64,000 nt of DNA from Cytidiella melzeri (lineage: Eukaryota; Basidiomycota; Agaricomycetes; Polyporales; Irpicaceae): positions 1-64,000 of the forward strand of contig JABYQR010000162.1 in NCBI GenBank assembly GCA_022592445.1, in the 5' to 3' direction. A model generated the notes under the pieces. It was not told where the DNA came from. It saw only the letters and a program-made list of their open reading frames with translations, and searched no databases. Made by a program: the position numbers and the translations under genes. Positions 1,022-60,192 of the stretch are shown piece after piece; the first letter of the stretch is position 1; every line of letters starts with the position of its first letter.

Positions 1022-3113
1022 CTTTGCCAACTTCTATCGGCGTTTCATTAAGGACTTTGCTAAACACGCGAAACCGCTCACTATTCTAACAAAGAAGGAC
1101 CAATCCTGGATCTGGAAAGATGCTCAGGAACAGGCTTTTACGTCAGCACCCATTCTGAGAATTCCAGATGACGAAAACCCTTTCCGTCTGGAAACAGACG
1201 CTAGCAACTTTGCTACAGAAGCGGTACTATCACAACTGGATCCAGCTGACAAGCTGTGGCATCCAGTAGCCTTCTACTCTAAATCACTCAATGTCCATGA
1301 ACGTAACTATGAGATATACGATAAAGAGTTGTTGGCTATTATCTGCACCCTGGAAGAGTATTGTCAACATCTGGAGGGATATCCGATCACCGTAGAAATA
1401 TGGTCGGATCATCAAAACCTGACGTATTTCAGGAATGCCCAGAAGCTCACTCGGAGACAAGCGCAATGGGCGTTATACCTCACGCGATTCAATTTCGTGC
1501 TCCGGCACAAACCCGGAAAGACCATGCTTACCGCAGATCCTCTGTCCAGGAGGCCAGATCATGAAGAGGGGGTAAATTCCGATAACAAGGACAAAATTCT
1601 CCTTAAACCCGAGTTTTTTGCCATCTCTGCTATTGAAAACTCTCATGACTTGCCTATCAATGATGATGAAATCCTAAGACGGGTCAAGGAAGCACTCATG
1701 AACGACAAAGTTACCAAGGACTATCAGCAGTTACTTAACTCTGGTCCTAGGGAGTTCAATAAATCACTAGAGGAATGGAATTTTGAGAACGGATTACTCC
1801 TATGTCGTGGAAAAGTCTACTTCCCCAAAGATCAGAAATTAGATCTGAGACGCCAAATCATCCAGATGCATCACAATCTACCTTCTGCCAGACATCCTGG
1901 CAGATGGAAAACGTACGAACTGATCTCGAGAAACTACTGGTGGCCAGGTTTAACCACTGATGTCAAGAAATACGTGACAGGCTGTGACACATGTCAGCGG
2001 ATGAAGACTCGTCCGCAACAGCCTTACAGACCACTCATCCCTAATCCGGTTCCGGCCGAACCATGGGATATCATGACTGTCAACTTGATTACTCAGTTAC
2101 TGGAGTCTGATGGCTTCAATGCTATCTGCGTAGTCGTAGACCGCCTTACTAAAAGGGCGCACTTCTTCCCTATTGTAAACAAGTTCTCGGCAAAAGATCT
2201 TGCAGCTCTACTCTATGAGAGAGTCTGGACTCTTCATGGGTTACCTTTGCAAATCATTTCCAACTGAGGTCCACAATTTGCAGCAGATTTATTCCAGGAA
2301 TGGTGTAAAATGCTAGGGATAGAATCTACGATGACCACCGCGTATCATCCGCAGACTGATGGTCAAACTGAACGAGTTAATCAAACACTCAAACAGTACC
2401 TGCGTTGTTACATTGATCTACTACATGATGACTGGGCTAGACTGCTCAGCTCGGCTGAGTTCGCATACAACAATGCAGCACACGAGGGAACTAAGCACTC
2501 ACCTTTTTACCTCAAATACGGCAGACACCCTAGAGCTGGTCCAACGCTCACTAAGGACCTGAAAAGGTCTAACATGAATTACATCATGTGGAACCGCTTG
2601 CAAGCTCAAGAGCATGCTAAAGCAGCGTTACAACTCGTGGCTGAATGCATGAAGTGGTACTACGACAAGCACGTCCAGAAGGTCCCCTTCAATGAAGGTG
2701 ATCAGGTCATGCTAGATCTGAGAGACTATCAAAAATCTGGACATAAGCTGTCAGCCAAGTACTACGGCCCATTCAAGATTGCTGAAAAGCTTTCGCCAGT
2801 CACATTCAGACTGGAATGGCCTGAACGTTCACCAAGGATACATCCTGTATTCCATGCAAGCAAGTTGGTACTGTATAACGAACCTGAATTTGAAGGCCAA
2901 AAGCTGGAGATGCCTCCGCCAGATATCATCAACGGAGAAGAAGAATACAAAGTCGAAAAGATTCTCAAGTCAAGACGTACAGGTCGTGCCAAAAAGCTTC
3001 AGTATTACATACGCTGGAAAGGCTACGGACCGAACGATGACACGTGGGAACCTGTAGAAAACATCACGCACGCTCAAGAAGCGATCAAGAAATTCTACGA
3101 CAATCATCCCTGA

Positions 3114-3384
3114 GCTATTCGCTCAGCTACAATCTACTGTGTATCAAGTTACGAACAACACACCAAGGATCATCCACGATCCAATGATGCAACCGAGGAG
3201 GGTACGGACTGGACTACCATCAGCCAATGAGGTGATAACCCCGTCAGGGACGTCGGTAGAAGCCGCTAGAGTCACTGGGAACTGCTTAGGCACCCTCTTG
3301 ACAATGGTGAAAAAGTGGACTCGATGACCAAGGTGTTCGTTCAAAACTCTTTGCACGGAGTTCAAAGCAAGAAGGGGGGGGTAA
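3114..3384 (+). other. A1 3' untranslated spacer with polypurine tract
   Basis: This is the spacer between the pol stop and the 3' LTR. It ends in the purine run GAAGGGGGGGG (about 3371-3381), directly before TAA and the LTR start. That is the expected plus-strand primer (PPT) of a Gypsy element. A short frame in it is also open in copy A3, but nothing shows that it is translated. Confidence 0.7.
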
Positions 3385-4064
3385 TGTCACAGATTTTCAA
3401 TGTTTCTACAAGACTTGCCTTACCAGGCAATGGTATTATTGGGAATATTTAAGCGCTTGTCAAGCGCTTATCCAGCGCTTATCCGGCATCTATTTAGGCG
3501 CTTATCCAGCGCTTATCTGGCGCTTATCAGGCGCTTATTCCGGCGCTTATTCTCAGTGCCTATCAATTGATGCGCTGATGCGCCTTCTGTCTCTGATGTG
3601 CTGATGCGCTCCTTTCCTTATCTGTGTATCACATGATAGAACTCTCTGGAACCTTGTGGAACATGCTGGAACTATGAGGTCATAGTATACAACATTTCAT
3701 TAGATGATGTCATAGTTCTTAGAACCTTCTGGAAAAGTCTAGCCTTGGGATTGGGTCATGGGGACAATTGCTATTGGTTGATTATTGAAGTGGCACCACT
3801 AGGGCATAGGGCATGCTTAGTAAGGTAGATTATTTCGCTTACTCATGTAGGTATTAGGGGTCTTAGGGTAGTACCTGGGGTCCTCCCCTTCATGTATATA
3901 TAGAGGCACTCCTGAGGGCATATCCCCTCAGTCTTATCCACTCTGTTGATAAAGGACTACCTTGTACTCTCCAGTACTTCACTCACCACACCTCTTACTC
4001 TCTATATCTCTATCTCCCCCTCAAGTTAAACACTTATCTGGTGAGTGTAACCTTAACTGTTACA
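3385..4064 (+). mobile_element. Gypsy-A 3' LTR of copy A1
   Basis: A 680-bp LTR runs from TGTCACAGATTTTCAATG to CTTAACTGTTACA, directly after the A1 polypurine tract. It contains several degenerate copies of GCGCTTATCC (about 3450-3560) and a TATATATA box near 3895-3902 that would be its core promoter. Three further copies are at 4734-5406 (minus), 49107-51350 and 59521-60192 (minus). The five bases after it (CACTG, 4065-4069) should match the five bases before the element's 5' end outside the window. Confidence 0.93.
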
Positions 4065-4733: not shown

Positions 4734-5406
4734 TGTAACAGTAATGCTACACTCACCAGATAAGTTGTTAAACTTGAGGGGATAGAGTGAGATAGAGTGT
4801 GAGAGGTGTGGTGAGCAAAGTACTGGGGAGTACTGAGTAGTCCTTTACCAACAGAGTGGATAAGACTGAGGGGATATGCCCTCAGGAGTGCCTCTATATA
4901 TACATGAAGGGGAGGACCCCAGGTACTACCCTAAGACCCCTAATACCTACATGAGTAAGCGAAATAATCTACCTTACTAAGCATGCCCTATGCCCTAGTG
5001 GTGCCACTTCAATAATCAACCAATAGCAATTGTCCCCATGACCCAATCCCAAGGCTAGACTTGTTCTAGCTTGTTCTAAGACAAGGCTAGACTTTTCCAG
5101 AAGGTTCTAAGAACTATGACATCATCTAATGGAATGTTGTATACTATGACATCATAGTTCCAGCATGTTCCACAAGGTTCCAGAGAGTTCTATCATGTGA
5201 TACACAGATAAGAAAAGGAGCGCATCAGCGCATCAATTGATAAGCACTGAAATCAGCGCTGGAATAAGTGCCTGATAAGCGCTAGATAAGCGCTGGATAA
5301 GCGCCTAAATAGATGCCGGATAAGCACTGGATAAGCACCTAGATATTCCCAATAATACCGTTGCCTGGTAAGGCAAGTCTTGTAGAAACATTGAAAATCT
5401 GTGACA
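4734..5406 (-). mobile_element. Solo LTR of Gypsy-A in Helitron 1
   Basis: A 673-bp reverse-oriented copy of the Gypsy-A LTR starts TGTAACAGTAATG and ends AAATCTGTGACA. It is flanked by the 5-bp duplication GCAAG (4729-4733 and 5407-5411). It interrupts the Helitron frame, whose flanks read through when it is removed. It lies inverted to the A1 3' LTR only 670 bp away. Confidence 0.95.
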
Positions 5407-40680: not shown

Positions 40681-40685
40681 CTCAA

Positions 40686-41264
40686 TGTTACAACCCAGTC
40701 CAACCACCCAACTTCACGTGACCTCTGCACCCGAACACTGCGCCGCATACTGCGCATCTCCGCACCGACGTCATCATGACCCTTGTCATCTGTTTTCTTT
40801 ACATCATGCTGTGTACAGTTCTCTTATTGCTCCGCAAGAATGCACATTTCCCTTTGTTCCGTTTTCGTCTACTCCTATCAGACTTGAAGTCATTGTAGTA
40901 TATATACAAGACCCACCTGTAGTAAATAAGTAATTTGAATATTGAATAAGACTCCCCTTCTTATGCTCTCTTTGTCTGCATTTGACTTCACTAGCTGAAG
41001 TCGTCTTACTCGTTGTTGTCCGACATCTCCTCGCTTATCCGGTGTTCCAATCACCACACCTCTGCAGGTCTGCATTTCAATTGAGCCTTGCTCTCAAACC
41101 TTTGATCCTGCTAAGTCCAAATTTGAGTCACGAGAATCCCGAGCGGCGCAACCTAACTGGTTGAAGCCAAGACTCATTCTGATCTCCCACGTTTGCTCCA
41201 CTGTTTCTGCATCTCCACAAACTCCGCAACTCCGCATCCCTTTCTTTTTGTCTTGCTCTTAACA
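40686..41264 (+). mobile_element. Gypsy-C 5' LTR
   Basis: The 579-bp LTR runs from TGTTACAACCCAGTCC to TTGTCTTGCTCTTAACA, with a TATATATA box near 40900-40907. It gives the uninterrupted reference for the CACTA insertion in the 3' LTR. Confidence 0.93.
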
Positions 41265-41380
41265 GCATATTTGAATTCCAAAACTCGGATTCTCCACTGT
41301 ATATGCCCACCCGCACAGCGATCACAAGAACCACTGAATCAATCTCATCCGCCCCGCCAACAGCTTAGCAAGCTGCCGTC

Positions 41381-42595
41381 ATGTCTCGCAATGACTCCCC
41401 CAAACTGCCCGCCAACATCAAAACCCGCAGGAGGGGTAAGGATAAAGATCCAAACCCCGGCCTGAGTAGAGACCCTGGAGGTGGAGATGGTGGAGGAGAC
41501 GATGGTGATGGTCCTGGTAATGGTAATGGTGAAGGAGATGAAAACCCTTTTGAGCAGCTTACAGCTGCTATCACACGAGCTTACACTCAAAACTTGTCCT
41601 CAAATGCCGAGTTCCGCATCCCCGACACCTTTGACGGATCAGACCGGTCAAAACTCCGCAACTTCCTCACCCAATGCACGGCTTATTTCCGTGCAAACCC
41701 AGGTAAGTTCAACTCCGGTCAAAAGAAGGTCATGTTTGCCTTCTCTTACCTGACGGACTCCACCTTGGAGTGGTTCGAGTTGAAGTTCCTCCAATTCCAG
41801 GAATGGGAGGAAAGCAGAAGTATATTTCCCATCTCGAATGCCGGCACACCTCACCCTCCAGCATCCGATGACAACGGCGATGATGTGGTGGATGCAACCG
41901 CCAAACACAATTGGGTCCGGAACTGGTTGGCCTTTGTTGCCAAAATCCGCAAGCACTTTGGTCCTGCAGACAACGTTGGTGAAGCAGAACGCCGCCTTGC
42001 GAATCTCTCTATGCCATCGGACAAGAAATTGTTCTGGTATAACCTCCGTTTCACCTGCTACTCCATGTGCACCGGCTGGGATGATTGTGCCCTCTGCTAC
42101 CAATACTACAACGGCCTCCCAGAACGCCTCCAGGATGATATCACGTCCAACGGCAAGCCTCACACACTTGTGAAGCTCAAGGAAATGGCCCTTAAGTGGG
42201 ATCAAAGGTACTGGGAGTGTCAGGGTGAGGAGAAGAAGAAAACCGAGCGGGAACAGAAACCCGCAAAGTTCGCATTGTCCTGGACCCCCGCTGTCACCGT
42301 CACTACCGCTGTCGCCATGGCTATGCCCTCTGGCTCTTGAAAACCCCGTCCCGCCGCAACCACTACTACCACCACTGCAACTCCGAAGACTAACCCCATT
42401 GCCAACCTCTTGGGAAGCAATGGCAAGCTCTCAAGTGTCAAACATGCCCGCCGCATTGCAAACAACCTCTGTTTGTTCTGCGGTCTACCCAGACATCGCG
42501 CAAGCGAATGCTGCAAGGCCGCAAAGGCTTGTGCCACCCAGTTGGCAGCACAGACCCCAGCGCCGAATGCTGCATCCGGGTTGGGAAATGTCTGA
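41381..42595 (+). pseudogene. Gypsy-C gag with canonical zinc knuckle
   Basis: The gag starts MSRNDSPKLPANIKTRRRG, then a Gly/Asp-rich linker (41478-41545), the retrotransposon gag core (FDGSDRSKLRNFLTQCTAYF, about 41633-41690; WVRNWLAFVAKIRKHFG) and, after a TGA at 42338-42340, the same frame continues to the knuckle CLFCGLPRHRASEC (about 42470-42511; CX2CX4HX4C). A second TGA follows at 42593. Protease is in the same frame downstream. Either both TGAs are decay or one marks a readthrough gag-pol junction. Confidence 0.85.
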
Positions 42596-42619
42596 GCAGC
42601 CCTCAGTCCTCTGCACAAG

Positions 42620-45600
42620 TTGAGGGCTGCACTGACCCCGCTCGTGCACCCAAGGAGGTATACCTCAACACTTCCAGTCTTTCTTCGGATGCTTTGTACA
42701 TTTTTGTATCTTGTGATACAATTTCCTTTACGAGCTCTGATTGATAGCGGTTCCTCCCACTGCTTCATGGACATTGATATTGCAAAGAAGTACTCTCTCC
42801 CTCTCGTCTCCATTCCCGCAATTCCGCTCTGTTTGTTTGATGGTCTTTCACGGTCTCTGATTCAATTCATGATAACACTACCACTCCGCTTCCCTTCAGG
42901 AAAAATCTGTATGACACCTCTCTACATAACAAATCTTGACAAATCCGCTTCTATTGTTTTAGGATACAACTGGCTCTCCCGCTACAACCCGTTGGTTGAC
43001 TGGGCTAAGGGTCATATAACCTTCCAAGACAAAGAAGAAACTCTGATCCGGAGTTCCTCCACAACAGACGATTCAGATGAGTCCTCTGATGCGGACACTC
43101 CCGCATCTCATGCTTCAGAAGTTCCTCCGGTATCCTTTATAGGTGCTGCCACGTATATACGCGCATGCAAACTGCCAGGCTCTGTTCAGATGCATTTCTC
43201 GCTGCGCGCCGCGCAGAATCATTCCTCCAAACCAAATCCAGACATCTCTGCACTTCCATCTGATTATCATGAATTCTGATGTTTTTTTTAATACCAAGGC
43301 CGACATTCTAGCCCCACATCGTCCCTACGACATCTGAATCAATTGAGAGGACAACAAACCTCTACCACAGAGCCCCATGTATTTGCTCTCCGCAGTCGAG
43401 TAAAAGGCTCTCCGCGAGTTCCTTGACAAAAACGTCAACTCCGGATTCATCCAACAATCTACTTCTCTGCATGGTGCTCCAATTCTTTTTGTCAAAAAGA
43501 AGGATGGAACTCGTCAACTCTGCGTCAACTATTGAGCACTTAACTGTATCACCAGCAAGGATTGCTATCCACTACCACTCATTTCCAACCCTCTGAACAG
43601 TCTGGGCAAGGCCCGACTCCATACAAAAATCGATCTCCGCCATGCCTATCATCTTGTCCGCATCACCAAAGGTGATGAGTGGAAAAAAACCTTTCGCACA
43701 CGTTATGGTTCATTTGAGTGGCTTGTAATGCCATTCAGACTTTTCAATGCACCCGCGGCTTTCCAACGTTTCATGAACAACATTTTCCAGGACCTCCTCA
43801 ATGTCAATGTCATTGTCTACTTAGATGATATCCTTATCTTCTCCAGTGATATACAGTCCCACAAGAAGCACGTCAAGGAAGTCCTACGCCGCCTCCGCAA
43901 ACATGGGCTTTACGCTCGTGCTGATAAATGCAAATTTCACACGGTAGAATACTTGGGCTTTATCCTTTTCCCCGAGGGCCTCCGCATGTCCTCAGATAAG
44001 GTCCAAACCATCCTAGACTGGCCAACTCTGCGCAAGGTCAAGGACGTCCAGTCTTTCCTTGGATTTGCCAATTTCTATTTTTTTTTATTCCACACTACTC
44101 GGACATCACTGTTCCTCTTACCAGACTCACGCGCAAGTCCGCGACTTGGGCATGGACTGAACAGTGCCAGACTGCATTCAATACTCTCAAAAAAGCCTTC
44201 ACCACTGCTCTGGTTCTGGTCCAATGGAATCCCAATGCTACAATCATTGTGAAAACTGACACCTCGGACTACACTCTTGGCGCCATACTCTCTATCATCT
44301 CTGACGGGAAGATTCATCTGGTCGCGTTTCATTCTCGCACCTTCTCCACACCCAAACTCAACTACGATGTGCACGACAAGGAACTACTAGCAATTCATGA
44401 AGCCTTCCAGACTTGGTGTCATTACCTGGAGGGTACTCTCTCTCCAATAGACGTGATCACCGACCCCAAGAACCTGGAGTATTTTTTGACTACAAAACTC
44501 CTCACCCAACAACAGGCTTGTTGGTCCAAATTCTTATCCAGTTTTGAATTTGTAATCTGCTTCAGACCTGGGAAACTTGGAAACAAGCCGGACGCATTAA
44601 CTAGACAATGGGACGTCTACCCTAAAGAGGGAGGTAGTGGCTATGCCAGTGTAAACCCGCATAACTTCAAACCTATCTTCTCCTCCAAACACCTCATTGC
44701 CTCGATCCGCGCATCTGCACTCATGAAACCAACGCTTTGCAGTGTTAATATCTTTGACTCCGAAGAACTCTACAAGGATATCCTCCAATCCCTACCCTCA
44801 GACACGTATGCTCAACAACTCCGTTCAAAACCTCTTCCTCCGAGGTGGGTTGACAATCTGTAAGGATTGTTACTCCATGACGGCAAGATATATGTCCCGG
44901 ACGTTGCTGGCCTCTGCGTCCGTGTCCTCCACTACAGACACGACCACCTCTTATCGGGTCACTACGGGGTTAGTAAGACACTAGCCCTGGTCTGAAGAGA
45001 GTTCTCATGGCCAAAACTCCGAACTTTTGTACAAGATTACTGCAAGTCTTGCACAACTTGTAAGCGATCAAAGGCTCCAAGACATAAGCCTTATGGTACA
45101 GTCCAACAGCTCCCAGTCCCGATGCGCCCTTGAGATTCTATTTCTATGGATTTCATTGAGCAACTCCTGGACTCCGCAGGCTTCACAGCCATACTTGTTA
45201 TCATGGACCGCCTCAGCAAACAAGGCATATTCATCCCCACATATGACACAATAGACTCTCCGGGTTTGGCTAAACTATTTGTACTTCATGTCTTTTCTAA
45301 GCATGGAGTTCCTTCTCACTGCACCTCCGACCGGGGCACGGAGTTTGTGTCACGGTTCTTCAGAGCCTTAGGACAGGCTTTGGACATGAACCTCCACTTC
45401 ACCTCCGGTTACCACCCCAAAGCAAATGGTCAGACAGAAAGGACTAACCAAACCCTTGAGCAATACCTCTGCGCAAACTGCAACTACCAGCAAGACAACT
45501 GGTTGGACTTGCTACCTCTCGCGGAGTTTGCTGTCAACAACGTCCCTAGCGCAACTACCAGTGTTTCCCCCTTCTTCGCAAACAAAGGCTACCATCCCAA

Positions 45601-46225
45601 CATCACCATACACCCCGAACATAGTCTTGCCTCCACACGCGCTCATGAGCTCGCCATTAACCTCGAGGACTTACACAAATACTTGAAAGAAAGCATGTGC
45701 GAAGCCCAACTCCGATATCAAGGTCCCGCCGACGCTGCACAAAAAGCGCCTCTGCAATGGGACATCAGAGATTGTGTCTTTGTCAAAGCAAAGTACTTCA
45801 ACACCACACGACCGTCTAAAAAACTTGCCGAGAAGTATCTCAGACCTTTTGTGATTATTGGACGCGTTGGTCCGCAATCCTTCACGCTCAATCTCCCTGA
45901 CGCAATGCGAGCAGTACATCCAGTCTACCACGTCTCTATGTTAGAGTCACACACACCCAGCAAAATCCCCGACTGAGTCCCATTGCCACCTCCGCCGGTT
46001 GAAATTAATGGAGAAATTGAATACGAGATCACGGAGGTACTCGACTGTAAACTCAATTGCCGACACTGCACATGTCCGCTTCTTTACCTAGTTCAATGGC
46101 TAGGATATGAGGGAACGGACAAAGAAACTGCATGGGTTCTAGCTACAGAGATGGATGGCGCTCCAGAAGCCATTGCCAATTTCCATAACCGTTATCCAAA
46201 GAAACCCGGCCCTTTACCTTTGTAA
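42620..46225 (+). pseudogene. Gypsy-C pol (protease, RT, RNase H, integrase, chromodomain-like end)
   Basis: Protease IDSGSSHCF (about 42741) is intact. RT has GAPILFVKKKDG (43469), [11 protein letters not shown] and YLDDILIF (43819). A poly-T slip near 44080 shifts the frame in ANFY. RNase H has TDTSDYTLGAIL (44252). The integrase zinc region C..CTTCKRSK (about 45043), core MDFIEQLL (45146), TSDRGTEF and GQTERTNQTLEQYL keep all three catalytic acids. The C-terminal chromodomain-like part is EIEYEITEVL to YLVQWLGYEG (46014-46115). Stops near 43277, 43335, 43399, 43532, 44861, 44993, 45133 and 45974 inactivate it. Confidence 0.9.
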
Positions 46226-46303
46226 TTATCTGTTTGTTTGTTTCATTATCCTTATATCATCTCCGCATTTCCGCAACTCCTCAAATCCGCACACATTCAT
46301 GCT

Positions 46304-47144
46304 TCATAACAAAAGTGCAAGGACAACGGTAGAGGTCTCATGGACCACCCTCTGCTTAACCCTTCCCCATCTCCTTGATCGAGATGTTACCAATTTGCAA
46401 GACCGTTTACCGGTCCTGCAAGCGTAACACACTTTCCCCTTTGTCTTTGCATTCAACTCCCAGAAGCAATCGGACTTGTACTTGATGCACGTATTGCATC
46501 ACACCTCTGACGTGCTTCAGTGGACCTCTATGACAGTCTCTCCGCAAACCACCCTTGTTGTCTTTGTAACGACTTGCACCTTCTTTTTCTTTGGAGTCCG
46601 CTCCGTGTCCTCCTCATCCTCGTCCGTCTCCTCCTCCTCCTCATCTTTGTCCGTAGGGACATATTGCGAGGTTGCAGGACTCAAAGTCCTGCTCCGCCAA
46701 ATTGTACCCGCAACAAACAGAGAAGGCACCGTTGCTGCATTCGCCGTAAGTTTTGCCGCAATCTCAGCGGCTGCCAACTCTACAATTGCCTTGCGCTGCA
46801 TCTCTGCTGCGGCCCTCTTCGCCAGCACTAACCGCTAACCCTCAGCGGCCACCTTTTTCTTTGCCTCCTCAGCTTCCGCCTTCTTCCTCGCCTTCTCAGC
46901 CTCCATCCTCATCTTCTCCTGCGCCGCCGCAACCAACTCTGCCGTCCTTTGGTGTTCCTCCTCAGCTGCTGCCTCTGCCCTCAACTCCTCCTCCTCCTGC
47001 TCCATCCTCGCCAGCTCGGCCTTCCTCTCAGCAATTTCTTGCTGCCTCCGTGCAAACCAATCAGCGGCAGTCTCTGGAAAGGAGTTGTTGAAGTCAGCCT
47101 ATCTCCATCAAGGAGCGGAAATACTCACCATTTGGGGTGGACAT
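46304..47144 (-). pseudogene. Antisense accessory ORF of Gypsy-C with Zn2Cys6 motif
   Basis: Minus strand, between pol and the 3' LTR. ATG at 47144 starts MSTPN; a 55-bp intron (47128-47074, GTGAGT...CTGAC...CCAG) splices to ETAADWFARRQQEI. A long Ala/Glu/Lys-rich coiled-coil-like segment, VPTDKDEEEEETDEDEEDTE, and KKKKVQVV (a possible nuclear signal) follow. In the same frame, after TAG (46837), TGA (46519) and TGA (46501), comes a cysteine cluster with codons starting at 46498, 46489, 46468, 46429, 46420 and 46399: CX2CX6CX12CX2CX6C, the fungal Zn2Cys6 consensus. It ends at TGA 46306-46304. One frame across 780 coding bases plus a good intron indicates a real, recently decayed gene, possibly a nuclear DNA-binding protein. 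No known family was assigned. Confidence 0.65.
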
Positions 47145-47289
47145 GTTGTTGCTGGGTACGGGGTAGTGGTGGGTGAAGGAAGAAAAGTTTAAGTCCAGCA
47201 TTCGCACACTCTCAGGACTTTATACCAAAACTCCAGATCTCCAATGCGGATACATTAAAAGCATTGCCCTCAGGGGTTCGGGCCTTAAG

Positions 47290-47311
47290 GGGGAGGTACT
47301 GTTACAACCCG
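47290..47311 (+). other. Gypsy-C polypurine tract
   Basis: AAGGGGGAGGTAC directly before the 3' LTR start, the expected plus-strand primer. Confidence 0.65.
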
Positions 47312-48528
47312 GTCCAACCACCCGACTTCACGTGACCTCCGCACCCAAACACCGCGCCGCATACTCCGCATCTCCGCACTGACATCATCATGACCCTTAT
47401 AATCTGTTTCCTTTACATCATGCTGTGTACAGTTCTCTTATCGCTCCGCAAGAATGCGCATTTCCCTTTGTTCCGTTTTTGTCTACTCCTATCAGACTTG
47501 AAGTCATTGTAGTATATATACAAGACCCAACTGTAGTAAATAAGTAATTCAAATATTGAATAAGACTCCCCTTCTTATGCTCTCTTCGTCTGCATTTGAC
47601 TTCACTAGCTGAAGTTGTCACTAGGGGCAAATGCCGATTTCACACGCCTTAAAATTTGCATGATTACACACTTGAAAGTTAACTATCAGCAGATAATCCA
47701 TAAGCAATTTTGGGCTCAGAATTGTTTTTTAATGTTTGAGAATACACAATAATGCTATACAAATTCTGTGCCTTTTCAGGGGCAGGAATTTCTGTTTTTT
47801 AAGTGGTAATTAAATCAAAAAGAAAGATGAAAGGAAGTCTACCTTTCAAGGCTCAGAAAATCAAGTGGAAAAGATATCTTCCACAGATTTGGAAAAGGGC
47901 ATGAAAACATCCAGAAAAGGAAAGGGCAGGTAGAATTTCCGGCGACGCGCTACTGAAAAGTTCTGGAAAGTTGTTTGCCACGTTATGTTTGCCATCACCC
48001 GACACACATGGGAAATCTATTTGTCTTTACAATTTTAGGTCGGTCGAAAATCTGCCCGAAAAATCAATATTCACACAGATTTTCGGAGCACGGAAAGGCT
48101 GCCAGTAGATAGGCTTGAAAATTTGTAGAAAAATCACAAAAATGTCTTTGATTGTATATTAATCTAACCCACCAAACATAACCAGATATTCACAGGATTT
48201 TTGACATCTCAAATAACTCTCACAATAATTTCATGCCATGTGAAATTGGCCTTTGCCCGCAGTGCGTCTTACTTGTTGTTGTCCGACATCTCCTCGCTGT
48301 CTCCAGTGTTCCAGTTACCACACCTCCGCAGGTCCACATTTTGATTGAGCCTTGCTCTTGAACCTTTGATCCTGCTAAGCCCAAATTTGAGTCACGAGAA
48401 TCCCGAGTGGTGCAATCTAACTGGTTGAAGCCAAGACTCATTCTGATCCCTCTTGTTTGCTCCACTGTTTCCGCATCTCCACAAACTCTGCAACTCTGTG
48501 TCCCTTTCTTTTTGTCTTGCTCTTAACA
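47312..48528 (+). mobile_element. Gypsy-C 3' LTR (interrupted)
   Basis: It runs from TGTTACAACCCGGTCC to TTGTCTTGCTCTTAACA. Apart from the 646-bp insertion and its duplication, it aligns along its length with the 5' LTR. Confidence 0.92.
47619..48264. mobile_element. Non-autonomous CACTA-type (EnSpm/CMC) element
   Basis: A 646-bp insertion has 26-bp imperfect terminal inverted repeats: CACTAGGGGCAAATGCC on the left and, reverse-complemented, CACTGCGGGCAAAGGCC on the right, both continuing to ATTTCACA. The intact 5' LTR shows the empty site; the flanks imply a 3-bp duplication (TGT at 47616-47618, CGT at 48265-48267). CACTA ends plus a 3-bp duplication fit the CMC superfamily. No coding sequence was seen. 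Confidence 0.8.
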
Positions 48529-49106
48529 CTCAGCTGTTCTCTTAGCTGCAGCCCCCCTTGTTCCTCAACCCGTTCCCTGGGTTTGCACGTATCAGGACAT
48601 CCATCCATTCTGATGATGCCTTCGTACCAATCAATGGTGGGATTGTGATACTGCAACCCATCAATTCCTATGATTACATCTTCTGGCCCAATCTTGGTAA
48701 CCGTGAAAATAGTCCTTTTCTCGTGGTCCCCTATCTTCATATTGAGAATAGCAACTTCATCAATAGCCCCGTCTCAATTTCGGGTTCCATCTATGTTGCA
48801 CACCGGAATTGGTTGTTTCAACTTCTGGGTCCTGATACGATGCTCTCAAACAAACCGTTTATGAATGAATAGTGTCAAGGCTCCACTACCAATCATTGCT
48901 GCGACTTCTTTATATCTCCGCACTCCTGAAACTGTGATGGGTACGTGAAAATGTTCCAATTCAGAACCAGTTTCTAATACATCAGACGCGAGTACAGAAA
49001 ATCTATGGTTACATGGTATATGCGGGGCACGTGCTATTGCAGCTTGAATCATGGCCTGAATCAAAAGCCCTCCTCAATTCTCTTCTTGAGGTCAGCATTT
49101 TCTGCC
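48529..49106 (-). pseudogene. Gypsy-B copy B2: gag end and protease
   Basis: This continues B2 between C1 and A3. It reads from the gag tail (KKRIEEGF, before TGA near 49065) into pol: VLASDVLETGSE, then the protease site, which is MIGSGALTLF where B1 has MIDSGASTLF, so the catalytic Asp is lost. IGPEDVIIGIDGLQYHNPTIDW and the RVEE region follow to the C1 junction. Confidence 0.85.
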
Positions 49107-49705
49107 TGTAACAGTAAGGTTACTACTCACCAGATAAGTTGTTAAACTTGAAGGGATAGAGTGAGATAGAGTGTGAGAGGTGTGGTGAGCAAAGTACTGT
49201 GAGGTACTGAGTAGTCCTCTATCAACAGAGTGGATAAGACTGAGGGGATATGCCCTCAGGAGTGCCTCTATATATACATGAAGGGGAGGACCCCAGGTAC
49301 TACCCTAAGACCCCTATACCTACATGAGTAAGCGAAGCAATCTACCTTACTAAGCATGCCCTATGCCCTAGTGGTGCCACTTCAATAATCAACCATTAGC
49401 AATTGTCCCCATGACCTGACCCCATGACCCCAGTCCCAAGACAAGGCTAGACTTTTCCAGAAGGTTCTAAGAACTATGACATCATCTAATGGAATGTTCT
49501 ATACTATCACATCATAGTTCCAGCATGTTCCACAAGGTTCCAGAGAGTTCTATCATGTGATACACAAATAAGGAGCGCATCAGCGCATCAATTGATAGGC
49601 ACTGAGAATAAGTGCTGGAATAAGTGCCTGATATGCGCCAGATAAGCGCTGGATAAGCGCCTAAATAGACGCCGGATAAGTGCTGGATAAGCACCTGATA
49701 TGTGC

Positions 49706-51278
49706 TGAGACACTAACACCCCCCCGGACACAAAGGGACTGGGCACAAACACACCTGACCTTGCGAGAGGCAATTACATGTGTAAGTAGGGGTTGAGGGT
49801 ATGCGTGAATGTAGGTTGCAAGTGGGTCCAAGAGTCCTAGGCTGCACCTAGACTCGGGTGAGCGGTGATGCATTTGCAGGGCTCGGAGTGCCAGGCCAAA
49901 AGCGCTGTGGTTTGTTTGGCTAGCTGGGAAAAGTTCCGGGTAGAAAGATGTAAAGTGAAGCCAAGCAAGGCAATGCAATGCAAAGGGGCAATAGAACTTA
50001 AGTGTTGCAAAAGAAAGTGGTATAAAAGTGATAGAGCTAGAGGCAACACAGTGGTGAAGAAATGGGAGCAATTGGAATGCGATACACAAGAGGGGGGAGA
50101 GGAAGTGGTGTGGTAAAGTGCGAGAGAAAGGACTGTGCTGGCTCATTGCAAGAGGATAACACAAAACGCCATGGCAAACACAGTAGGAAACGCAATGGGA
50201 ACACAGAATAAACGCAAACTAAATCGCAGTAGCCTTGAGAAAGAGAAGGGGCGGCTGTAAAAGGGGGTCACAGTGAAGGAGAAATGCAACACAGTAATTA
50301 ATGCAGTGATATAAACGCAGTAGGAACTCAAAATGGGGTTGCAATGAAGGAGAAAGTGACGCAGGGTGAGAGATACGCACTGCGGAGTTGCTCAAGAAGC
50401 AAGGGAAAAGTGGCAGGGGCAACTTTGAGGGGAAAACTGCGGGGGTGTCATATTCTAAGCTAAGCAAGGTACAGACACAGCATATATAAGTAAAAGGCAA
50501 TAGGGGCTATAGCAAATTGAAGCCATGCGAGAGCAAGGCAGGAAAGGGGCATCGCGCGATGAAACGAGGGACAAACGCGAAACATGTTACAGGAGCGATG
50601 GGGCACTGCCTTTAGCCGCTCTGCAAAGAGAACAGGCTGCGGAATCCAAGGGAGTGGAAAAGGGGTCCGGGGGGTTCCAACAGCTATGAGCTTGAGTGCG
50701 AGGGACTACAAGGATGCAATATGCGGCAAGTGAAGCCATGCGAACCAAAGCAGAGGGAATGCAACGCGAGGCAGCGCAAGGCAAAGCAAGGCGGCACGAC
50801 GCGACGCGAGGCAATGCGAAGCAAGGCAATGCAAGGCGACGCAAGGCCAAGCAAAGCGGAGGAGAAGCGAGGCAACGCGAGGCAGTGCAAGATAACGCGA
50901 GGCAAAGCAAGGCGGCGCGATGCAACGCGAAGCAACATGGAAGGCGAGGCAAGGCAAGGCAAAGCAAGGCGAAGCAAAGCAGAGGGAATGCAATGCAATG
51001 CAAGGCAAGGCAACACGAGGCAGCGCAAGAAAACGCGACGCAACGCAAAGGGAATGCAAGGTGAGGGGGCGGGAAGCAAAGGGAAGCAAAGCGACCCAAT
51101 GCGAAGCAAGGCAAAATGAAGCAATGCAAAGCAAAGCAAGGCGAAGCGATGCAATGGAAAGCAAAGCAAAGCGAGGCGATGCAATGCAAGTCTTGCCAGA
51201 ACCAAGGGCTGCTGCTAGTCCATGCAAATGTGCTCGCCTTTGGGCCTGTTGCACGTCCAGCAATTTCCGGGCGTATCA
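49706..51278 (-). mobile_element. Family V LTR-like insertion V2 (1.57 kb)
   Basis: The insertion runs from TGAGACACTAACACCC to CCGGGCGTATCA on the plus strand; as read on the minus strand, TGATACGCCC...GTTAGTGTCTCA, with TG/CA ends. Flanks GTGC and GCGC suggest a 4-bp duplication with one change, but a longer one cannot be excluded. It carries no enzyme domains. It contains the long GCNAN pentamer tract. It may be a long solo LTR or a non-autonomous LTR element. Confidence 0.65.
50700..51230 (+). repeat. Degenerate pentanucleotide tract (GCRAN)n
   Basis: About 500 bp are made almost wholly of 5-mers such as GCAAG, GCAAA, GCGAG and GCAAT in mostly unbroken register. On the minus strand it is pyrimidine-rich and open in all three frames, giving low-complexity Cys/Ala/Leu/Phe peptides. 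These frames reflect composition, not genes. Confidence 0.85.
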
Positions 51279-53882
51279 GCGCTTAAATATTCCCAATAAT
51301 ACCGTTGCCTGGTAAGGCAAGTCTTGTAGAAACATTGAAAATCTGTGACATTACCCCCCCTTCTTGCTTTGAACTCTGTGCAAAGAGTTTTGAACAAACA
51401 CCTTGGTCATTGAGCCACTTTTTCGCCATTGTCAAGAGAGTGCCTAAGCAGTTCCGAGTGACTTTAGCGGCTTCTACCAATGTCCCTGACGGGGTTATCA
51501 CCTCATTGGCTGATGGTAGTCTAGTCCGTACCCTCCTCGGTTGCGTCATTGGATTGTGGATGATCCTTGGTGTGTTGTTTGTAACTTTATACACAGTAGA
51601 TTGTAGCTGAGCGGATAGCTCAGGGATGATTGTCGTAGAATTTCTTGATTGCTTCTTGAGCGTGTGTAATGTTTTCTACAGGTTCCCACGTGTCATCGTT
51701 CCGTCCGTAGCCTTTTCAGCATATGTAATACTGAAGCTTTTTGGGACAACCTGTACGTCTTGACTTGAGAATCTTCTCGACTTTGTATTCTTCTTCTCCG
51801 TCAATGATATCTGGCAGAGGCATCTCCAGCTTTTGACCTTTGAATTCAGGTTTGTTGTATGGTACCAACTTGCTTGCATGGAATACAGGGTGTATCCTTG
51901 GTGAACGTTTGGGCCATTCTAGTCTGAATGTGACTGGCGAGAGCTTTTCAGCAATCTTGAATGGACCATAGTACTTGGCTGACAGCTTATGTCCAGATTT
52001 TTGGTAGTCTCTTAGATCTAGCATGACCTGATTGCCTTCGTTGAAGTGAACCTTCTGAACGTGCTTGTCATAATACCATTTCATGCGTTCAGCCACAAGT
52101 TGTAACACCACTTTAGCATGCTCTTGAGCTTGCAAGCGGTTCCACATGATGTCATTCATGTCAGACCTTTTCAGGTCCTTAGTGAGTGTTGGACCAGCTC
52201 TAGGGTATCTGCCGTATTTGAGGTAGAAAGGCAAGTGCTTAGTTCCCTTGTGCGCTGCATTGTTGTATGCAAACTCAGCCGAGCTGAGCAGTCTAGCCCA
52301 GTTGTCATTTAGTTGATCAACGTAACAATGCAGGTACTGTTTGAGCGTTTGATTAACCCATTCAGTTTGACCATCAGTTTGCGGATGATATGCGGTAGTC
52401 ATTGTAGATTCTATCCCTAGCATTTTACACCATTCCTGGAATAAATCTGCTGCAAATTGTGGACCTCGGTCGGAAATGATCTGCAAAGGTAACCCATGAA
52501 GGGTCCAAACCCACTCATAGAGTAGAGCTGCAAGATCTTTCGCCAAAAACTCGTTTACAATAGGGAAGAAGTGCGCCCTTTTAGTAAGGTGGTCTACAAC
52601 TACGCAGATAGCATTGAAGCCATCAGACTCCGGCAACTGAGTAATCAAGTCGACAGTCATGATATCCCATGGTTCGGCCGGAACCGGATTAGGGATGAGT
52701 GGTCCATAAGGCTGTTGCGGACGAGTCTTCATTTGCTGACATGTGTCACAGCCTGTCACGTATTTCTTGACATCAGTGGTTAAACCTAGCCACCAGTAGT
52801 TTCTCGAGATCAGTTCGTATGTTTTCCATCTGCCAGGATGTCCGGCAGAAGGTAGATTGTGATGCATCTGGATGATTTGGCATCTCAGATCTAATTTCTG
52901 ATCTTTGGGGATGTAGACTTTTCCACGGTATAGGAGTAATCCGTTCTCAAAATTCCATTCCTCTAGTGATTTCTTGAACTCCCTAGGACCAGAGTTAAGT
53001 AACTGCTGATAGTCCTTGGTAACTTCGTTGTTCATGAGTGCTTCCTTGACCCGTCTTAGGATTTCATCATCGTTGATAGGCGAGTCATGAGAGTTTTCGA
53101 TAGCAGAGATGGCAAACAACTCGGGTTTAAGGAGAATTTTGTCCTCGTTATCGGAATTTACCACCTCTTCATGATCTGGCCTCCTGGACAGAGGATCTGC
53201 GGTAAGCATGGTCTTTCCGGGTTTGTGCCGGAGCACAAAATTGAATTGCATGAGGTATAACGCCCATCGCGCTTGTCTCCGAGTCAGCTTCTGAGCATTC
53301 CTGAAATATCTCAGGCTTTGATGATCCGTCCATATTTCTACGGTAATTGGATGTCCCTCCAGATGTTGACAATACTCTTCCAGGGCACAGATAATAGCCA
53401 ACAACTCTTTATTGTATATCTTATAGTAATGTTCATAGACATTGAGTGATTTAGAGTAGAAGGCTACTGGATGCCACAGCTTGTCAGCTGGATCCAGTTG
53501 TGATAATACCACTCCTGTAGCGAAGTCGCTAGCGTCTGTTTCCAGACGGAAAGGGTTTTCGTCATCTGGTATCCTCAGAATGGGTGCTAACGTAAAAGCC
53601 TGTTTCAGACTTTGGAAGGCCTGTTCCTGAGCATCTTTCCAGATCCAGGATTGGTCCTTTTTTGTCAGAATAGTGAGCGGTTTCGCATGTTTAGCAAAGT
53701 CCTTAATGAAACGCCGATAGAAATTGGCAAAGCCTAAGAAGGCTTGGACTTGCTTAATTTTTTCAGGTTGCGGCCACTCAGTAACTCCGGTGAGTTTGGC
53801 TGGATCCATCTCAATGTGTCCGTGAGAAATGATCATGCCTAGGTACTCAATGCAATTTTTTTCAAAAAAGCATTTTTCCGGT

Positions 53883-59520: not shown

Positions 59521-60192
59521 TGTAACAGTAAGGTTACTACTCACCAGATAAGTTGTTAAACTTGAAGGGATAGAGTGAGATAGAGTGTGAGAGGTGTGGT
59601 GAGCAAAGTACTGTGAGGTACTGAGTAGTCCTCTATCAACAGAGTGGATAAGACTGAGGGGATATGCCCTCAGGAGTGCCTCTATATATATATAAAGGGG
59701 AGATCCCAGGTACTACCCTAAGACCCCTAATACCTACATGAGTAAGCGAAGTAATCTACCTTACTAAGCATGCCCTATGCCCTAGTGGTGCCACTTCAAT
59801 AATCAACCAATAGCAATTGTCCCCATGACCTGACCCCATGACCCAGTCCCAAGGCTAGACTTGTTCTAGCTTGTTCTAAGACAAGGCTAAACTTTTCCAG
59901 AAGGTTCTATGAACTATGACATCATCTAATGGAATGTTCTATACTATGACATCATAGTTCCAGCAGGTTCCACAAGGTTCCAGAGAGTTCTATCATGTGA
60001 TACACAGATAAGGAAAGGAGCGCATCAGCGCATCAATTGATAGCGCCTGATAAGCGCCAGATAAGTGCTGGATAAGCGCCTAAATAGACGCTGGATAAGC
60101 GCTGGATAAGTGCCTGATAAACACTTAAGTATTCCCAATAATACTGTTGCCTGGTAAGGCAAGTCTTGTAGAAACATTGAAAATCTGTGACA
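59521..60192 (-). mobile_element. Gypsy-A 5' LTR of A3
   Basis: The 672-bp intact LTR, plus-strand TGTAACAGTAAGGTTACTAC to GAAAATCTGTGACA, has a TATATATATATA box at about 59683-59694 and GCGCTTATCC-type repeats near 60040-60120. Confidence 0.94.

Follow-up and report, generated by a model that had tools for sequence, protein, structure and literature searches.

The role of antisense accessory genes in LTR elements is an open question, and it is called unknown in the portions of the reviews available to us. One such gene, brtn of the Boty element, reportedly goes back to Zhao et al. 2011. According to the available parts of the published accounts, antisense genes in the interval from pol to the 3′ LTR have been described from plants and from Boty of Botrytis (PMC7264820). 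Boty, or BcGypsy1, of Botrytis cinerea is, like the element described here, a fungal LTR element whose pol carries a chromodomain (PMC4227169), and its brtn gene likewise lies antisense between pol and the 3′ LTR (PMC7264820; also PMC8365987). Among the plant elements, gene23 of Grande and TRP28 of Retand share the position and orientation of the gene described here, and in the retroviruses HBZ of HTLV-1 and the APH genes of HTLV-2 to -4 are antisense and spliced, as is predicted in the present case (PMC10186651, available text). The gene studied here lies in a Ty3/Gypsy element within the window (the whole stretch of Cytidiella melzeri DNA that was analysed, 64,000 nucleotides), which has the following features.

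40686-48528, plus strand: Ty3/Gypsy element with LTRs, gag, pol, chromodomain and polypurine tract
40686..41264, plus strand: 5′ LTR, 579 bp, TGTTAC...TTAACA, from self-BLAST against the 3′ LTR
41369..42337, plus strand: gag open frame (Retrotrans_gag 25.3 bits, cut-off 24.1; DUF4939 29.7, cut-off 29)
42596..46222, plus strand: pol, its frames broken by stops, with protease, RT, RNase H, integrase, SH3_Tf2-1 and chromodomain
47287..47299, plus strand: polypurine tract AAGGGGGAGGTAC, directly 5′ of the 3′ LTR
47300..48528, plus strand: 3′ LTR, split by a 641-bp insert at 47620-48260
47233..47252, minus strand: stretch TATCCGCATTGGAGATCTGG, read by sequence as a candidate promoter
47219..47224, minus strand: TATAAA, 80 bp upstream of the antisense ATG, between the polypurine tract and the ATG
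47129..47144, minus strand: exon 1, 16 bases, MSTPN plus the first base of the next codon, with the ATG at 47144 (family 2, described below, also has five codons, MSAPA)
47074..47128, minus strand: predicted phase-1 intron, 55 bp, GTGAGT...TTCCAG, at a position shared across families
46341..47073, minus strand: remains of exon 2, with charged N-terminus, acidic stretch, basic patch and six-cysteine domain
46397..46498, minus strand: six-cysteine domain C-x2-C-x6-C-x12-C-x2-C-x6-C, from a pattern search of the window

The two LTRs are 94.1% identical over 320 bp and 89.9% identical over 268 bp (self-BLAST within the window) and the element is flanked by a target-site duplication, CTCAA (40681-40685) and CTCAG (48529-48533), matching at four of five bases. 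The Pfam matches along pol are RVP_2, RVT_1, RT_RNaseH, RT_RNaseH_2 and SH3_Tf2-1, together with rve at 26.9 bits, under its cut-off of 32.6; Chromo (45977-46222) scores 24.0 bits in the window copy, just under the cut-off of 25.1, and 28.4 bits against the same cut-off in a family-2 homologue (L061). With its LTRs, gag, protease-RT-RNaseH-integrase order and C-terminal chromodomain the family is a chromovirus (Ty3/Gypsy with a chromodomain). The insert that splits the 3′ LTR has the ends CACTAGGGGCAAA...GCCCGCAGTG and the flanks TGT/CGT, and by eye resembles a CACTA-type miniature element. Elsewhere the window holds two inverted 93% copies of another chromovirus pol (1124-3318 and 51415-53609, the first with a Pfam Chromo domain), a G/A-rich array of 5- and 10-base units (AAGGC, GCAAAGCAAG) at 50587-51315 with long open frames on both strands, and short GATAAGCGC-type repeats (5239-5345, 49608-49707 and 60026-60120) that recur next to related repeat copies.

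A first-pass annotation had described, opposite the strand of pol and before the 3′ LTR, an antisense frame with a 55-bp intron near its start, three stops, an acidic run, KKKK and a CX2CX6CX12CX2CX6C pattern. All of these were found: the ATG is at 47144 on the minus strand, the predicted intron (GTGAGT...TTCCAG) is present in the sequence at 47128-47074, and the cysteine pattern, at 46498-46397 on the minus strand, is the sole stop-free match to C-x2-C-x6-C-x5-14-C-x2-C-x6-8-C in the six frames of the whole window. The end of the gene, on the other hand, had been placed wrongly at 46304. The last 38 bases of that stretch (nt 804-841) sit 0.57-0.59 kb further on in other copies, the offset being taken from those copies whose match reaches the break and which also contain the nt 804-841 piece, and from this it follows that about 0.57 kb has been lost from the window copy at about 46341. 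As this copy is also frameshifted after the last cysteine, position 46304 falls past the true stop. The window copy is dead (three stops, the frameshift and the loss), and the antisense gene is larger than had been annotated.

A search of the 49.7-Mb genome at the DNA level gave 24 matches; at the protein level one intact exon 2, used as the query, gave 48, and from these family 1 (in the wide sense, including the window copy) was counted at no fewer than 18 places; two places on contig C319 are possibly one copy split by insertion, and distant members are 63-72% identical. Family 2 was first met in this protein search, at 34-37% identity around the cysteines, and a search with a family-2 protein found it at at least 26 places, both counts being lower bounds. 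In family 1 seven matches span all 431 residues and four of these are without stops in exon 2 (about 430 aa), and 16 of 23 near-full matches in family 2 have no internal stop. The antisense coding frame between pol and the LTR is thereby kept in most copies of a family, as in an aORF-3R. Four of the first five family-2 loci read (L058-L062) have the gene antisense and downstream of the chromodomain end of pol; L060 has something other than pol on that side. The LTR pairs of two family-2 insertions date both as very young, one pair being free of mismatches with a single gap over 620 bp and the other having one mismatch over 614 bp, and in both insertions the antisense frame is open. A degenerate third variant of the six-cysteine protein is seen at L063 (G000:C35:271300-273000; CNWCNKAGVDCYWRSNRNGLLCQRCNKDKTRC). 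It had also been suggested that the element captured a host nuclear DNA-binding gene. This is unsupported, as none of the 16 Zn_clus matches in the genome falls at any place of the antisense gene and, apart from the two families, the protein searches of the genome for relatives turned up only L063, which is degenerate, and two weak matches (C568:160750 and C345:34698).

The plan of the gene is common to both families, and the place of the intron and its splice signals are conserved. In family 1 MSTPN is followed by a 55-bp phase-1 intron (six of six copies examined) and then by E-T-A-A-D, and in family 2 MSAPA is followed by a 52-bp phase-1 intron at the same codon (12 of 13 loci, the thirteenth being the third variant, L063) and then by E-T-T-A-Q; the intron GT has decayed in an old copy, L021. 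In 14 of the 15 other family-1 copies TATAAA is found at -77 to -80, and in all 12 family-2 copies that have exon 1 it is found at -91/-92; the distance from the ATG to the LTR is 152-155 bp in 12 of 15 family-1 copies (those with a recognised tract). About 40 bp adjoining the polypurine tract are nearly identical between the families. At the ATTGGAGAT site the 12 other family-1 copies read ATTGGAGAT (seven), ATCGGAGAT (three), ATCGGAAAT (one) or ATCAGAGAT (one). ATCGGAGAT lies 12 bp upstream of TATAAA in three of 12 family-1 copies and 11 bp upstream in five of the five family-2 loci printed, and ATTGGAGAT, ATCGGAAAT and ATCAGAGAT could be variants of it produced by CG decay. The antisense stop faces the pol stop with 0.12-0.16 kb between them (five copies measured). 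The product, about 350-435 aa long, is charged at its N-terminus and contains acidic and basic stretches as well as the six-cysteine cluster.

The classical Zn2Cys6 cluster has the spacing C-x2-C-x6-C-x5-12-C-x2-C-x6-8-C and its two halves fold alike. The antisense domain fits this spacing in two families and one remnant, with a loop of x12 in family 1 and x10 in family 2 and L063, and the Pfam family matched by most members is Zn_clus (five of five). The scores, at 9.9-15.4 bits, are all under the cut-off of 21, and other families edge out Zn_clus in L061 (PSI_integrin, 14.0 vs 13.7) and L063 (DUF5651, 15.9 vs 15.4); three Zn_clus domains of host proteins in this genome reach 28.5-33.4 bits. 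The best Zn_clus stretch places the second half of the three family-1-type members on profile positions 1-14 and the first half of L061 and L063 on positions 16/18-30/31. With nine host Zn_clus fragments as the reference (four of the 13 fetched were left out), hhalign paired the first half of the domain with the second half of the host domain (probability 27 for the whole domain, 60 when that half was used by itself) and its second half with the first half of the host domain (probability 19). In most of the host fragments an aromatic residue follows the last cysteine, and its counterpart here is the tryptophan that follows the third cysteine. Neither half gave a Zn_clus match when scanned alone against Pfam. 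These scores are weak, and they suggest that the six-cysteine cluster may be a Zn2Cys6 cluster with swapped halves. The Zn2Cys6 assignment made in the annotation therefore holds as regards spacing, whereas the Pfam gathering cut-off is missed and the classical order of the halves is, on weak matches, apparently reversed. The predicted structure of the 63-aa cysteine region of the window copy was poor (mean pLDDT 59) and a fold search of the PDB with this model gave no match at E 0.001. Sequence searches of the PDB gave nothing significant, either with the antisense protein or with a profile of the cysteine domain (Pho7 chains at E 3.8 and 5.3 only). In a protein collection whose fungal content may be small, one exon-2 protein had no match at E 0.001 among the 7993 best candidates and exon-2 residues 188-420 had none at E 1 among 2196 candidates. 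A Pfam scan of the antisense protein found no other domain of Zn2Cys6 factors and no match to TRP28.

Pho7, a classical Zn2Cys6 factor, uses TCG(G/C)A... and two of its sites have a single CGG (PMC5559640, available part). By analogy CGG was taken as the candidate target, a choice made after seeing the sequence, and motif counts in the window (either strand) gave the following positions.

47338, 47365, 47373 and 47445 (47338..47450): TGCGGA/TCCGCA, four times in the 3′ LTR
48325 and 48470: further TGCGGA/TCCGCA
40759, 40831, 41223 and 41231: TGCGGA/TCCGCA in the 5′ LTR
47245: TGCGGA/TCCGCA in the antisense promoter stretch
46262, 46270 and 46286: TGCGGA/TCCGCA elsewhere

TGCGGA thus occurs four and six times in the family-1 LTRs of the window (expected 0.19 and 0.18; reached in 0 of 300 shuffles), and two family-2 LTRs hold ATCGGA seven times each (expected 0.6-0.8; 0 of 300 shuffles) and TCGGA 12 and 14 times (expected 2.5-2.8; 0 of 300 shuffles). 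TGCGGA is absent from these two family-2 LTRs and ATCGGA from the family-1 LTRs, and none of the motifs was found in two control stretches (600 and 480 bp, the presumed LTR behind the tract in two other chromoviruses). When all 6-mers were ranked, ATCGGA or CTCCGA came top in family 2 and TCCGCA third in family 1, after TCTGCA and TATATA. Among the other family-1 copies TGCGGA is present 3-9 times in 11 of 12 LTRs (it is absent from the rearranged L019) and in nine of 12 promoter stretches, sometimes not upstream of the TATA box. Family-1 pol (5, expected 0.90; 1 of 300 shuffles) and gag (3, expected 0.40; 3 of 300 shuffles) likewise contain more TGCGGA than expected, which counts against LTR specificity.

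We propose, with a probability of about one half, that the antisense gene is inherited in a chromovirus lineage and that its product is a self-encoded nuclear regulator of the element's own LTR. Within a lineage of fungal chromoviruses this accessory gene would be passed on in antisense orientation in the interval from pol to the 3′ LTR; its product would be a nuclear, zinc-dependent protein that binds DNA through the cysteine cluster, perhaps as a dimer pairing through predicted charged helical parts; and it may recognise the CGG-containing motifs repeated in the LTR of its own family and in its own promoter stretch, by which it would control transcription of the element and of the antisense gene itself. 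A real nuclear protein that acts at a later step (import of cDNA into the nucleus, choice of integration site or chromatin tethering together with the chromodomain), with a host Zn2Cys6 factor binding the LTR motifs, seems rather doubtful to us. The genome has Zn_clus domains of its own, and the plant antisense proteins are nuclear (Grande GENE23) or predicted to bind DNA (Retand TRP28), their transcriptional role being unproven in the available parts of PMC7264820 and PMC11963269. However, the families that differ in the antisense protein differ in the motif too, and the motif is found in the antisense promoter stretch of the 9/12 family-1 copies given above, although a host factor would still be compatible with both observations.

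Two copies of a family-2-like element (C98 and C730, which share an identical 286-bp stretch and are either two insertions or one duplicated region) are without the antisense gene, the pol end and the tract being only about 0.2 kb apart, and the LTR of C98 has 12 TCGGA in 640 bp. Two other chromovirus families, read in a single copy each (L072 and L073), have the tract soon after pol, leaving no room for the gene. L073 (G000:C29:97500-101500) also holds, at 2602-3999 element-sense, a 466-aa open frame with knuckle-like cysteine motifs, antisense to and downstream of the chromovirus pol and tract, which by eye is part of another nearby-inserted element. As gene-less copies exist, the gene is confined to part of the chromoviruses of this genome and is dispensable in cis; the finding of full-length copies lacking the frame, which the annotation had named as evidence against its interpretation, is partly borne out by the two family-2-like copies. 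If the product is a regulator of its LTR, we lean modestly towards an activator over a repressor because the gene-less relative keeps the LTR motifs. A repressor resembling HBZ, which would damp its own LTR and favour long-term persistence, is a sub-case of the regulator reading (counted within its probability) and is in our view unlikely. HBZ of HTLV-1, an analogue studied in depth, is antisense, has spliced and unspliced forms, is nuclear and lowers 5′-LTR expression (PMC10186651, available text), and motif copies beside the gene's own TATA box would suit feedback, but a protein that helps in trans would account more readily for the motifs of the gene-less relative, and the acidic stretch is weakly compatible with activation.

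Comparison of copies indicates that within families the gene is constrained as a protein. Pooled within-family pN/pS in the gene frame is 0.42 in family 1 (six copies) and 0.41 in family 2 (11 copies, leaving out L062, which has an early stop, and L063), the pooled pairs not being independent. The two shifted frames of the gene strand give 0.70-1.12 and two frames of the opposite strand 0.80-1.37, but one opposite-strand frame is nearly as low (0.49 and 0.44), and the comparison, with its ratio below 1 in the gene frame, therefore does not by itself name the strand. All six cysteines, together with the tryptophan following the third, were seen in 25 of the 30 distinct loci examined (28 of 33 entries, three of which were duplicates), a count that took in 12 of the 26 family-2 places and is biased, as family 2 was found via the cysteine region; the five misses (L017, L018, L019, L023 and L024) are cut, interrupted or decayed at that region, the last cysteine of L019 having changed to glycine. 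An antisense RNA rather than a protein, forming dsRNA with the element RNA and leading to RNA silencing, is an improbable basis for the gene. Spliced antisense non-coding transposon RNAs, including those of LTR elements, are documented in Blumeria (PMC10648671) and dsRNA has also been proposed for the plant antisense genes (PMC7264820), in both cases in the text available; the codon-level constraint and the protein homology at saturated synonymous sites nevertheless point to selection on the protein, and in each of the five copies measured the coding part of the gene lies clear of that of pol.

Dinucleotide shuffles of the intact exon 2 of L010 and L061 gave a mean longest of six frames of 191 and 194 codons, respectively, and at least 1 of 300 shuffles was open over the full length in each case, so that frame length alone is weak evidence. 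A chance open frame opposite a conserved feature of the element strand would fit these long shuffled frames, the stop-poor composition and the long open frame on the element strand of family 2 (352 aa in three of five loci, 416 aa in one), but is extremely improbable, as the homology of the two families in this reading frame (E 2e-12 across 108 residues, against 0.005 for the next best pair of frames), the common intron position and TATA box, and the cysteines go beyond chance and all favour the antisense frame.

Between families the antisense gene is, as judged by sequence comparison, less conserved than pol and appears to evolve fast. For L010 and L061 the C-terminus of pol (267 codons) is 84% identical, with dN 0.089 and pS 0.73, and exon 2 is 33% identical, with dN 0.69 and pS 0.70; two more between-family pol pairs are 73% identical with dN 0.19 (their family-2 frames, L058 and L059, end in frameshifted tails, and the pol figures come from seven pairs). 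As synonymous sites are saturated between families, no dN/dS is claimed. A narrower form of the regulator reading, which we hold tentatively, is that the element has its own sequence-specific transcription factor on the antisense strand, with a half-swapped Zn2Cys6 cluster; protein and LTR motif (TGCGGA vs ATCGGA/TCGGA) would have changed together, with pol far more conserved, giving each family a private circuit that gene-less relatives may use in trans.

Among the matches listed from the open-licence PMC literature (titles and starts of abstracts) no paper dealt with a zinc-cluster gene antisense to a fungal Gypsy element, and the main text of 'LTR Retrotransposons in Fungi' (PMC3248453) contains none of the strings zinc, zn2 or captur. 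Within the literature so searched we did not find described the cysteine cluster, the intron plan across two diverged families or the family-specific LTR motif. The case offers a candidate DNA-binding domain and a candidate LTR target for an antisense accessory gene. Two families with different protein and motif suit a swap-type binding test, for which young open-frame copies are usable and gene-less relatives are a natural control. If binding proves true, this would be an element-encoded LTR-specific regulator in fungi, with a logic comparable to that of retroviral regulators, and perhaps also a major fungal DNA-binding domain in rearranged form.

When the gene is set beside the known systems, the accounts of brtn, which is known to us by description only, mention in their available parts neither a zinc cluster nor an intron. 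gene23 of Grande has its own promoter (an antisense transcript has been shown) and a nuclear product, whereas here there is a TATA box at a fixed distance only; TRP28 of Retand, predicted to bind DNA, is a candidate likeness, but Retand belongs to a non-chromovirus lineage and the present element is a chromovirus. The plant genes carry TRP28 or SMC domains, in the accounts available, and here a six-cysteine cluster is found instead. The HBZ and APH proteins are nuclear, with APH-3 in the cytoplasm as well; LTR activity is lowered by HBZ, APH-3 and APH-4, and the promoter of these antisense genes lies inside the 3′ LTR, in contrast to the TATA box outside the LTR seen here (PMC10186651, available text); HBZ is a bZIP protein whereas the antisense protein has a cysteine cluster, and no homology is claimed. 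From the fungal Zn2Cys6 factors (PF00172, e.g. Pho7) the antisense protein differs in falling under the Pfam cut-off, in the apparently swapped order of its halves and in having no other Pfam domain of such factors, yet it shares with them the cysteine spacing and, in its presumed target, motifs of the CGG type.
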